Part shown: in pieces, positions 11,969 to 20,249 of the stretch
Layout: each line of letters begins with the position of its first letter
Numbering within the stretch: position 1 is the first letter of the stretch
From: Rhizobium sp.
GTDB taxonomy: Bacteria > Pseudomonadota > Gammaproteobacteria > Xanthomonadales > Xanthomonadaceae
Direction: 5' to 3'
Assembly (NCBI GenBank): GCA_019459185.1
Contig: JAIBEO010000217.1
Span: 19,405 to 83,404 of the forward strand
DNA length: 64,000 bases
Translations under genes and position numbers: made by a program
The notes under the pieces: generated by a model
Told to the model about the DNA's origin: nothing
Database searches by the model: none
Seen by the model: the letters and a program-made list of their open reading frames with translations, nothing else

Positions 11969-14194
<2,226 letters not shown>

Positions 14195-14202
<8 letters not shown>

Positions 14203-14803
14203 GGCCGCCACCGTGCTCGAGCTTGAAATCCAGGTTGCGCCGCACCACCGGCCATTCGCTGTCCAGGATGGAATAGACCACCGTGTCGCGCAGGTGCCCG
14301 TCGGGCATGCGCATCTGCCGGCGCAGGATGCCGTCGAAGTGCGCGCCCAGGCGTTCGATGGCGGCGCGCGAGCGGTGGTTCATCACGTGCGTGCGCAGTT
14401 CCACCACGCTGCAGCCCATGGCGTCGAAAGCGTGGCCCAGCAGCAGGCGCTTGGCCTCGGTGTTGAGCGCGCTGCGCTGCACCCGCGCCGAGTACCACGT
14501 GTAGCCAATCTCCAGGCTGGGCACCACCGGGTCCATGCGGAAGAAGCGCGTGCTGCCCACCGGCTCGCCGCTGGCGTCGCGAACGAGGAAGGGCATGGCG
14601 GTGCCGGCCTCGCGGTCGGCGATGGCGCGGGCCAGGTAGGCCCACACGGTTTCCGGGCCCGGCACGGTGGTGTACCAGAGGTTCCACAGCTCGCCGTCGC
14701 TGGCCGCGGCCAGCAAGTCTTCGGCGTGGTGCGGCTGCAGCGGTTCGAGGGTCACGTGGTGGCCCTCGAGGATCGGCGGAATGGTCCAGTGCAGGCTTTG
14801 CAT
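14195..14803 (-). CDS. GNAT-family N-acetyltransferase within the arg operon
   Basis: [38 protein letters not shown] typical of RimJ/RimL-like GNATs. Confidence 0.85.
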
Positions 14804-14805
14804 GC

Positions 14806-16104
<1,299 letters not shown>

Positions 16105-16109
16105 CTCGG

Positions 16110-17213
16110 TCACGCGTTTTGCTCCAGCAGGCGGGTGTAGGTGGCGGCGGCGGTGGCGAGCTGGTCGAGCTCGACCCACTCGTCGGCCGTGTGGGCCTGG
16201 GCGATGTCGCCCGGGCCATAGACCAGGGCGGTGAGCCCGGCCTGGGAAAACAGCGAGGCTTCGGTCCAGAAATCCACGGCGTTGCCGATGGGCAGGACGA
16301 GCGCATCGGCCAGGTCACGCGCGGCGAGGCGCTTTTCCTCGGCCCGGGCGATGTCGCCGGCCGGCAGCGAGGGGCCGCGGAAGGTTTCTTCGTAGTGCGC
16401 CAGCGCGGCCGGGTCGGCCAGGCTGCGGAAGTGCGCGTGCATGGCGTCCAGGTCCATCGACGGCAGCGGCCGGAAGCCGAAGCGCAGCTCGGCCGCCGGC
16501 GCGATCATGTTCGCCTTGATGCCGCCCTCGATGCGGCCGATGTTGAAGCGCAGGCCGGTGAGCCCGCCGAAGCGCGCGTGCGACTGCGCCTGGGCATGGT
16601 CCAGCGCCTGGGTGCCCCAGCGCATGGCCTGGTGCACGGCGCTGAGGTCGAAGGCGTTGGCGCCCGAGGCGTGGCCGGCTTGGCCCTGGAAGCGCATCAG
16701 CACCGAACTGATGCCGCGGTGGGCCAGCACGGCCTCGCAGCGGGTGGGTTCGGCGACGATGGCTTCTTCGAAACCGTGGTCACTGGCCAGGAAGGCGGCG
16801 ATGCAGCGGGCGTCGTTGGCTTCCTCGTCGCTGCTGAACAGGAACGCGGCGTCGCCGGTGGTGCGCTGCGCGGCGGTCACCAGGCCCGCGGCGGCGCCCT
16901 TGATGTCGCAGGCGCCGAGGCCAATGGCCTTGCCGCCTTCGACGCGCAGCGCGTGCGGGTCGGCGCTCCAGTTCGGCGACGAGGGCACGGTATCCAGGTG
17001 CACGTTGAACACGCGCTTCGGGTTGCCGCGCACGGCCAGCATCGACACCGCGCCCGCACCGTGGTCGGTCACCGTCACGGTGAAGCCCGGCAGCTGCGCG
17101 CGCAGGTAATCGAATATCCCGCCGGTGCCGATGGCCCGCGGCGGGTTGCGTGTGTCGAAGGAGACCAGCGCGTCGAGGTGGCGAAGGACGTCCGGCAGCA
17201 GGGTGTCGGTCAT
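16110..17213 (-). CDS. argE': ArgE/M20 deacetylase (by context N-acetylcitrulline deacetylase)
   Basis: M20 motifs [23 protein letters not shown]; next to argG and argF'. Confidence 0.82.
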
Positions 17214-17214
17214 G

Positions 17215-18414
17215 TCAGCCCTTGGGGTTGATCTCGGCCCAGAGCGTGCTGGACATACCGTACAGGCGGATGAAGCCTTCGGCCTCGGCCACGCCCCAGT
17301 CGGCCGACTGGGCGTAGGTGGCGCCCTTGGCATTGAGGATGTGCGGCGAGCGAACGGCCACGGCGTCCACGCGGGCGCCCTGGGTTTCCAGCACCACTTC
17401 GCCGTTCACGCAGGACTGGCTGGAGGCCAGGAAGGCCTCGAGGTCGGCCTTGAGCGGGTCGTTGTAGAAACCTTCGTACACCAGCTCCACCCACTTGCGC
17501 GCCACTTCCGGCTTGAAGCGGTTCTGGTGCTTGGTGAGCACGGCTTCCTCGAGCGCACGGTGCGCGGTGAGCAGCGCGGCCAGGCCCGGGGCCTCGAAGA
17601 TGATGCGGCCCTTGAGGCCGATGGTGGTGTCGCCGGTGTACAGGCCGCGGCCCACGCCGTACTTCGCGAACAGGCCGTTGAGCTTGGCCAGCAGCTCGGC
17701 GCCGGGCATCACCACGCCGTCGAGCGCCACGGCCTCGCCCTGCCTGAAGGTGAGGGCCACGCGCAGCGGCTGCGCCGGCCATTCGGCGCGCGGCGCGCAC
17801 CAGCCGCGGGCGCCCTCGCCCGGGGCTTCCCAGCGGTCGATCTCGCCACCGGACATGGTCAGGCCCAGCAGGTTTTCGTTGATGGTGTAGCTCTTTTGCT
17901 TGGCGCGCACTTCGAAGCCGCGCTCTTCCAGGTAGGCCTGCTCGTAAGCGCGGGTCTGGGTGTGTTCCTTCTGGATTTCGCGGATGGGCGCGACGATCTG
18001 GTAGTCGCCTGCGGCCTTCACCGCCAGGTCGAAGCGCACCTGGTCGTTGCCCATGCCGGTGCAGCCGTGGGCGATGGCGCGGGTGCCGATCTCGGCGGCG
18101 CGCTTCAGGGCGGCGTCCACGATGAGGTAGCGGTCGGACACCAGCAGCGGGTACTGGCCCTGGTAACCCTCGCCCGCCATCACGAACGGCTTCACGAAGC
18201 CGTCCCAGATGGCCGGGCCGCCTTCCACCGTGACGTGGCTGGCCGCACCCAGCTCGGCCGCGCGGGCTTCGATGTAGGCGCGCTCTTCCGCGTCCACGCC
18301 GCCGGTGTCGGCGAACACGGTATGAACGGCCCAGCCGCGCTCCTTCAGCCAGGGAATGCAGAAGCTGGTGTCGAGGCCGCCGGAGAAGGCGAGGACGATG
18401 TGCTTGTCGGTCAT
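17215..18414 (-). CDS. argG: Argininosuccinate synthase
   Basis: [30 protein letters not shown]. Confidence 0.95.
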
Positions 18415-18439: not shown

Positions 18440-19444
18440 TTACTGATTGGCCAACGCCGCCATCACGGCCTTCTGCACATGCAGCCGGTTCTCGGCTTCC
18501 TCGATGGCGATGCACTGCGGCGAATCCATCACGGCATCAGTGGCCTTCACGTTGCGGCGCAGCGGCAGGCAGTGGCTGAAGACGCCGTTGTTGGTCAGCG
18601 CCATCTTGGCTTCGTCGACGATGAAGTGCTTGTGCGCGTCGCGGATGGGCTTTTCCTGCTCCCAGCGGCCGAAATACGGAATGGCGCCCCAACTCTTGGC
18701 GTACACCACATCGGCGCCGGTGTAGGCCTCGGTGATGTCGTGGCTCATGCGGAAGGAGCCGCCCGATTCGGCCACGTTGTCACGCGCCCAGCCCAGGTAG
18801 CGCTCGTCGAGCGCGTACTCGGGCGTGGGGCACAGCAGGGTCACGTCCATGCCCATCCGCGTGGCGATGGTGAGCGCCGAATTGGCCACGGCGGTGTTGA
18901 GCGGCTTCGGGTGGTAGGTCCAGGTGAGCACGAACTTCTTGCCGCGCAGGTCGGTGGTGCCGAAGTGCTCCTGCAGCGCCAGCGCATGCGCCAGCTCCTG
19001 GCAAGGGTGGGTGATGGTTTCGAGATTGATCACCGGCACCGTCGAATACTTCGCGAAGGCGCGCAGCACCTTGTCCTCGCGGTCCACGGCCCAGTCCTGG
19101 AACTTCGGGAAGGCGCGCACGGCCACCAGGTCCACGTAGCGCGACAGCACCCGCGCCACCTCGGCGATGTGCTCCTCGGCCTCGCCGTCCATCACCTTGC
19201 CCAGCTCGAATTCGATGGGCCAGGCGTCCTTGCCCGGCTGCAGCACCACCGCGTGGCCGCCGAGCTGGAAGGCGCCGAGCTCGAAGCTGGTGCGGGTGCG
19301 CAGCGAGGGGTTGAAGAACACCAGCGCGATGGACTTGCCCTTGAGCTGGTCACCGGCCTTGCTGCGCTTGAACGCGGCGGCCTGGGCCAGCACGGCGTCG
19401 AGCTCGGCGCGGGACCAGTCCTGGGTGTTGAGGAAGTGCTTCAT
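18440..19444 (-). CDS. argF': N-acetylornithine carbamoyltransferase (AOTCase-type)
   Basis: [48 protein letters not shown]. Confidence 0.92.
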
Positions 19445-19481
19445 CGCGGAATCCTGAGGAGAAAGGGGAAAACCAAAACAA

Positions 19482-19509
19482 AAAAGCCCAGCACGAGGCT
19501 GGGCTTTTT
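19482..19509 (-). terminator. Intrinsic terminator in the argF' leader (candidate attenuator)
   Basis: Minus strand AAAAAGCCCAGC-CTCGT-GCTGGGCTTTTTT followed by GTTTTGGTTTT, upstream of argF'. Confidence 0.8.
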
Positions 19510-19534
19510 CCGGTGAACGAGCGACGGCGTCCGG

Positions 19535-19639
19535 TTACCCAGCGAAGATGTGGGGTTCCGGTCGGCGCGCGCGAGACGTCATGCCCGCCGCCATGTAGGC
19601 GGAGCTCAGGACGTCGGCGGCGGAAAGGCGCAGGTTCAT
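19535..19639 (-). CDS. Candidate arginine leader peptide MNLRLSAADVLSSAYMAAGMTSRARRPEPHIFAG
   Basis: 34-codon ORF just downstream of a promoter-like sequence, R-A-R-R cluster at codons 23-26, stop just before the terminator. Confidence 0.6.
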   Translation of the reverse strand: MNLRLSAADVLSSAYMAAGMTSRARRPEPHIFAG

Positions 19640-19648
19640 GGGGGTGGG

Positions 19649-19677
19649 AGTATGCCGGCCGGGGCTCCCGGCCGCAA
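19649..19677 (-). promoter_or_regulatory. Putative sigma70 promoter for the arg operon
   Basis: Minus strand TTGCGG-N17-CATACT immediately upstream of the leader ORF. Confidence 0.45.
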
Positions 19678-19679
19678 GC

Positions 19680-20249
19680 TCAGCGGACGGCCGCGGAGGG
19701 CTCGTCGGGGGTCACCGAGACCCGGACCCGCAGGCGGTTGCCCGGGTCGTACGGCAGGCGGGACATGTACTTGTCGCCCTTGTACATGTACTCCACGTCG
19801 TAGCCGACCACTTGGCGCTCCTCGCGCTCGACCTCGACGATGCGGCAGCCGCGGGCCTCGGCCTCGGCCTTGTTGCGGGCCACGCTGTTGCCGATCATGC
19901 CGCCGGCGACCGCGCCGGCCACGGTGGCGGCCTTGCGGCCGTCGCCCTTGCCGACCTGGTTGCCCAGGGCCGCACCGACGATGGCGCCGATGACGGTGCC
20001 GTTGGTAGTGCGACGGGAGTCACGGTATTCGACCGTGTCCTCGCAGCGCTCCTCGGGGGTGCGGGTGCGGACGACCTCGACCACCTCTTCCGCACGCAGC
20101 ACCTGGGCGTAGCCGTAGCTCACGTTTTCCGGCACCGCTTGGGCGTACTCGTCGTAGCCGGCGTCTTCGTACGGGTCGGATTCGTACTGCGCGAAGGCCG
20201 GGGCCGAAGCCAGGACCAGCAGGGGCAGGACGCGGGTGGCGAAGCTCAT
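19680..20249 (-). CDS. Glycine-zipper 2TM-domain exported protein
   Basis: Signal peptide; NGTVIGAIVGAALGNQVGKGDGRKAATVAGAVAGGMIGN. Confidence 0.85.
   Translation of the reverse strand: MSFATRVLPLLVLASAPAFAQYESDPYEDAGYDEYAQAVPENVSYGYAQVLRAEEVVEVVRTRTPEERCEDTVEYRDSRRTTNGTVIGAIVGAALGNQVGKGDGRKAATVAGAVAGGMIGNSVARNKAEAEARGCRIVEVEREERQVVGYDVEYMYKGDKYMSRLPYDPGNRLRVRVSVTPDEPSAAVR

Follow-up and report, generated by a model that had tools for sequence, protein, structure and literature searches.

What controls the arginine operon in a genome where ArgR cannot be found, when a regulon survey takes ArgR to be the arginine regulator of Gammaproteobacteria (PMC5343134)? The question is raised by a 64,000-nucleotide stretch of DNA from the Xanthomonadaceae (hereafter the window, meaning the whole stretch analysed), in which the genes from argF' to argH are read on the minus strand (Table 1). 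No ArgR was found in the window's genome by a search that was positive in 9 of 14 control genomes. An ArgR-repressed operon would need ArgR to be encoded in the genome, and this requirement is not met. The nearest locus to that of the window lies in an Arenimonas metagenome assembly, with an ArgF' protein 98% identical. The first-pass annotation of the region upstream of argF' had proposed an arginine-responsive attenuator, composed of promoter-like boxes, a 34-codon ORF carrying Arg codons and an intrinsic terminator, all of which were confirmed on the minus strand at the coordinates given in Table 1.

We conclude that this region is very probably a ribosome-mediated transcription attenuator, sensing charged tRNA-Arg and controlling the arg operon. 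Conservation, geometry, covariation, promoter position and ArgR absence were observed, while stalling, the response to arginine and attenuation are inferred, without expression data. The Arg codons of the leader, the pairing and the near-leaderless start support the proposed attenuation, with an arginine response that is inferred and not measured. A short leader ORF with clustered Arg codons is present, as is an intrinsic terminator between this ORF and argF'. An antiterminator excluding the terminator is supported on geometry and covariation, its pairing being weak in f2 and f3 and mismatched in 4 loci (f-numbers are the families of the order as labelled in our analysis; one locus without upstream sequence, L139, was dropped).

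Table 1. Coordinates of the proposed arginine leader, its pairing segments and the downstream operon in the window
Feature	Coordinates	Strand	Remarks
Promoter-like boxes TTGCGG (19677-19672), N17, CATACT (19654-19649)	19649..19677	-	Sequence; similar boxes in relatives
RF02242 (Xoo5 sRNA) match, whole model 1-124	19515..19641	-	52.9 bits vs gathering score 50, E 4.5e-10
Leader peptide ORF, 34 codons + TAA, MNLRLSAADVLSSAYMAAGMTSRARRPEPHIFAG	19535..19639	-	ATG 19639 to TAA 19535; kept in 80/80 argF' loci of the family
MTSRARR core	19562..19582	-	Arg codons CGC 19573-19571, CGC 19567-19565, CGA 19564-19562
Segment 1, CCGGAACCC	19553..19561	-	Pairs with segment 2 when free of ribosome
Segment 2, GCTGGGTAACCGG, antiterminator 5' strand, overlapping the leader stop codon	19531..19543	-	GCTGGGT 19543-19537
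Segment 3, CCGGAAAAAGCCCAGC, antiterminator 3' strand and terminator 5' arm	19498..19513	-	
Segment 4, terminator 3' arm GCTGGGC and U-tract	19480..19492	-	
argF' (N-acetylornithine carbamoyltransferase), first operon gene	18440..19444	-	ATG 19444; PF02729, PF00185
argG (argininosuccinate synthase)	17215..18414	-	
M20-family deacylase (argE-like)	16110..17213	-	PF01546, PF07687
Bifunctional N-acetylglutamate synthase-kinase (NAGS-K)	14806..16122	-	AA_kinase and NAT domain
GNAT acetyltransferase of the operon	14195..14899	-	PF13302
argC	13252..14211	-	Semialdehyde dehydrogenase domains
argH (Lyase_1 family; identity read from operon position)	11969..13255	-	PF00206

The leader peptide was compared among 80 argF' loci of the window's family, fetched by ArgF' protein similarity alone and independently of the leader. 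In 80/80, a leader ORF containing MTSRARR stops a short distance ahead of the terminator (in the window, the ORF ends with MTSRARRPEPHIFAG). The conservation of the Arg cluster had been proposed as a test of the attenuator, which the locus passes: the cluster is kept in every relative with a leader. Across the 80 loci and the window, the Thr, Arg and Ala codons of the core vary synonymously and the peptide remains unchanged. At the third Arg position, CGA is used in 81/81 of these leaders and in 114/116 of a wider set; we call this codon rare because it accounts for 0.44% of the Arg codons in argF'. The 116 leaders were picked by the core itself, while in the 80 loci fetched by similarity the core was unconditioned. 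In this wider set, Ala -6, Ala -3, Met 0, Ser, Arg, Ala, Arg and Arg are invariant, with Thr at 99%, under many synonymous changes; residues further from the stall site vary, and no conservation is seen at the C-terminal end, next to the stop codon. The conservation of A-x-x-A-x-x-MTSRARR exceeds what codon counting alone would require, and the motif covers residues that would be located in the upper exit tunnel, were the ribosome stalled at RR.

A chance ORF in GC-rich DNA was ruled out by shuffles, by the reversed pattern and by the class control described below. It is also unlikely that the peptide is conserved as a by-product of RNA pairing, since the Thr, Arg and Ala codons are free to change at their third positions; in the window's fold, the A of CGA is left unpaired. 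As a side observation, the other two Arg codons can be CGC or CGT, and in about 90% of the leaders (L001-L146) the codon after CGA is one for Pro, nearly always CCG.

The MTSRARR DNA pattern was found in 264 of 398 Xanthomonadales genomes, with a reversed-pattern control near zero. It occurs in all the genomes listed for the window's family but one (L111, which reads MASRARR), in all those of f12, in f2 and in most of f3. Conversely, it was found in 0/271 gammaproteobacterial genomes outside the window's family: 274 genomes had been drawn for this class control, and the pattern occurred only in the 3 that belong to the family. From f4 to f10, the ArgF' gene mostly still follows a short ORF and a terminator with CCCAGC, and the peptides differ, including RRRRVLQSTAG, LRRRSRRP, EQRREPRRTR, VVRRRPRPRIYAG, RRLRRPRTGNRAG and ELRRRRTCPKQGW. 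Of the loci in families without MTSRARR, 16/19 have at least three Arg in six codons, compared with 9.1% of shuffled regions; clusters of any other amino acid were present in at most 4/19. In some distant families segment 2 is read as AG-stop, in others as GW in another frame, and it is therefore conserved as RNA. Because f4-f10 do not have the motif, the conserved peptide looks like a refinement in one clade and not the core of the mechanism. Four genomes (G198, G223, G261 and G283) carry a second match to the MTSRARR pattern elsewhere.

The second component of the proposed switch is the RNA between the Arg codons and argF'. An intrinsic terminator lies upstream of argF' in 80/80 loci of the family; in the window (19510-19480, minus strand) it is composed of a 13-pair stem followed by a T-rich tail. 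The pairing of GCTGGGT with the terminator 5' arm, pointed out by the first-pass annotation, is present and conserved, with compensatory change. In the window it is extended by CCGG past the stop codon (19534-19531), which pairs with CCGG at 19513-19510, giving an antiterminator of 7+4 pairs and -18.2 kcal/mol in the window fold. In most members of the window's family segment 2 reads GCUGGGU and segment 3 ACCCAGC or GCCCAGC; in f12 they are GCCGGGU and ACCCGGC. Their pairing is weak or unclear in f2 and f3. At the covarying position, 103 loci show U-A (70), C-G (24), U-G (5) and the mismatch C-A (4; L028, L062, L064 and L066), and this position also covaries within the terminator. In a 14-sequence alignment (A1) every cell was paired and the covariation score was reached by 1/500 shuffles and by no slid control. 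Only 5 and 6 changes are placed on the ArgF' tree, with about two concerted segment 2/3 switches on well-supported branches. The covariation statistics are thus limited by relatedness, and a sign test is powerless, as it cannot reach significance. In eight loci of the window's family (L004, L016, L026, L054, L057, L069, L073 and L079) the stop codon falls before or inside segment 2, and GCTGGG/CTGGG is still kept.

The whole leader folds better than its dinucleotide shuffles (z = -2.84). When the fold was computed with a ribosome at CGA and segment 4 not yet transcribed, the median probability of the segment 2:3 pairing was 0.999. In the untranslated window leader, segment 2 pairs upstream with segment 1 at a probability of 0.72, so that the fold-back of GCTGGGT suggested earlier is favoured in the window fold without a ribosome; among the loci, this protector pairing exceeds 0.5 in 34/102. 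At equilibrium, the fold of the complete hairpin favours the terminator in every state (median 0.96 even with a stalled ribosome), therefore the switch must be kinetic. Between the last RR and segment 2 there are in most cases 12-26 nt.

As regards the start of the transcript, the promoter boxes place it at about 19641-19642, matching the mapped 5' end of the Xoo5 RNA. Members of the window's family have, at an almost constant distance upstream of the leader ATG, a TTGC box, a spacer of 16-18 nt and a box ending in AT; a sigma-70 consensus scan of the window did not call the leader promoter. The gene of a glycine-zipper protein lies directly upstream of the leader (19680-20249, minus strand), and the -35-like box of the leader promoter begins 2 nt past its stop codon.

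The window scores above the gathering score of RF02242, the Rfam model of Xoo5, and scores are stronger in the Xanthomonas and Stenotrophomonas loci; related loci reach up to 148 bits. Xanthomonas oryzae pv. oryzae is the organism from which Xoo5 was cloned and its 5' end determined by RACE; in PXO99, Xoo5 lies between PXO_00354 and PXO_00353, the latter encoding N-acetylornithine carbamoyltransferase (PMC3039613). It is the same element, with its RACE 5' end at the leader start and argF' beside it. In the window and in the Xanthomonas loci the model starts 2 nt before the leader ATG, the position to which it assigns the RACE end. Because this start and the promoter boxes agree, the mRNA that encodes the leader peptide is probably almost leaderless; the Xoo5 end mapped by 5'-RACE (PMC3039613) fits the near-leaderless transcript that the first-pass annotation had inferred from the promoter. 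The Xoo5 Northern bands are of about 130 and 100 nt (PMC3039613), and the terminated leader, expected at 157-162 nt, is longer, which suggests processing. The main text of that paper describes Xoo5 only as an sRNA, with no leader ORF, attenuation, arginine or argF link. The most fitting interpretation of Xoo5 is, in our view, the arg leader transcript in its attenuated form. The RF02242 model, which is typed as an sRNA gene and ends just before the terminator, should probably be a cis-regulatory leader that includes it.

On these grounds the following sequence of events is proposed. Transcription would begin some 2 nt ahead of the leader ATG. Under a shortage of Arg-tRNA, the ribosome would stall on CGC-CGA (codons 25-26) and cover segment 1, leaving segment 2 (GCUGGGU..CCGG) to pair with segment 3 before segment 4 is made; no terminator would form and the operon from argF' to argH would be transcribed. 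When arginine is plentiful, the ribosome would reach the stop codon and cover segment 2, and segments 3 and 4 would form the terminator, releasing a leader RNA of about 160 nt, presumably the one catalogued as the sRNA Xoo5. Without translation, segments 1 and 2 are predicted to pair, making termination again the default.

The strict conservation of the peptide raises the question of whether the nascent chain contributes to the stalling. In the window's family, f2, f3 and f12, the leader may be a hybrid of attenuator and arrest peptide that replaces ArgR, a reading that we regard as possible and no more than tentative. Stalling would be sharpened by the rare CGA and by the nascent A-x-x-A-x-x-MTSRAR located in the upper part of the exit tunnel, and, if this is true, a small drop in Arg-tRNA charging would switch the whole pathway on. 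It is more doubtful that the leader is an arrest peptide proper. In that case, arginine or some other metabolite would cause the nascent A-x-x-A-x-x-MTSRARR itself to halt the ribosome at RR, and the RNA switch would work as above. The core is near-invariant in the 116 leaders despite many synonymous changes, as this explanation would have it; however, f4-f10 keep only the Arg clusters and not the motif, the residues by the stop codon are not conserved, and an arginine-induced arrest at RR would switch the operon on at high arginine, which is the wrong direction. Arrest is nevertheless compatible with the attenuator, to which it could be an added layer.

A different reading starts from the cataloguing of Xoo5 as an sRNA gene: the RNA would act in trans, the hairpin would merely end the sRNA or the glycine-zipper gene, which lies upstream on the same strand in 104/108 loci, and the promoter of argF' would be elsewhere. 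This is highly unlikely, given a peptide conserved under free synonymous change, Arg clusters that survive where the peptide is otherwise replaced, the covariation of segments 2 and 3, and the persistence of leader and terminator in 4 loci without the glycine-zipper gene. The first-pass annotation had kept as a fallback that the hairpin terminates this upstream gene, which fails to explain the peptide conservation and the four gene-less loci; together with the covariation, they led us to reject it. An additional role in trans of the released leader RNA is not excluded. Least credible of all is control by Rho or translational coupling with an incidental intrinsic terminator, for which the Salmonella speF orf34 leader, using Arg codons with Rho and RNase G (PMC6386406), offers a precedent, but which leaves unexplained a strong intrinsic terminator in 80/80 family loci and terminator arms that covary with segment 2.

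The attenuator favoured here resembles those of trp, his, leu, ilv, thr and pheA in its ORF with regulatory codons, its mutually exclusive antiterminator and terminator, the protector hairpin predicted in the window's fold and the structural gene downstream. Unlike them, it is arginine-specific, near-leaderless, found where ArgR is missing and, in part of the order, strictly conserved in its peptide context; its three or four Arg codons are fewer than the regulatory codons of the his leaders. In fungi, the arginine attenuator peptide is a leader peptide that causes arginine-induced translational arrest in a eukaryote. It shares with the arg leader the combination of leader peptide and arginine, whereas the sequence is unrelated and the logic is opposite. 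The closest bacterial cases also differ in what is controlled. Salmonella speF orf34 has consecutive Arg codons in a short leader ORF that senses arginine, but it controls ornithine decarboxylase via Rho, RNase G and translation, and not the intrinsic terminator of an arg biosynthetic operon (PMC6386406). In Staphylococcus aureus rbfL, rare Arg codons of a leader peptide likewise sense Arg limitation, but the outcome is a translational block of a biofilm regulator (PMC13009471). Pseudomonas carA has a similar stem-loop leader before a gene needed for arginine, with a leader peptide reported in P. aeruginosa (Kwon 1994, cited in PMC4997734); there, the stem-loop serves pyrimidine control and arginine acts through ArgR.

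A survey of premature terminators contains no arg case (PMC2965389), and our literature search, which did not cover subscription papers that could hold one, found no published arginine attenuator of an arg biosynthetic operon. The element would add arginine to the amino acids with a biosynthetic operon attenuated through a leader peptide, and would give a function and coding potential to an orphan Rfam sRNA. Thanks to the near-invariant CGA and the peptide motif, both codon-specific charging and a contribution of the nascent chain to attenuation can be tested directly.

At the level of the order, ArgR scored above cut-off in 8/398 genomes, all of them from f11 (8/8), with one weak sub-threshold match outside this family. 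The argF of f11 encodes a different enzyme, 41-45% identical to the window's ArgF', and neither leader nor terminator was found in the four f11 loci read (L168-L171). Leader and ArgR are mutually exclusive in the genomes sampled, because ArgR above cut-off occurs only in f11, whose argF has no leader. The attenuator would supply a regulator of arginine synthesis for an order, including Xanthomonas, Stenotrophomonas and Lysobacter, that is mostly without ArgR. Some f5 and f9 loci have neither leader nor ArgR; in L149, L161 and L165, argF' has no recognisable leader and the genomes are without ArgR. In the f11 loci L168-L171, argR lies about 1.2 kb from argF.
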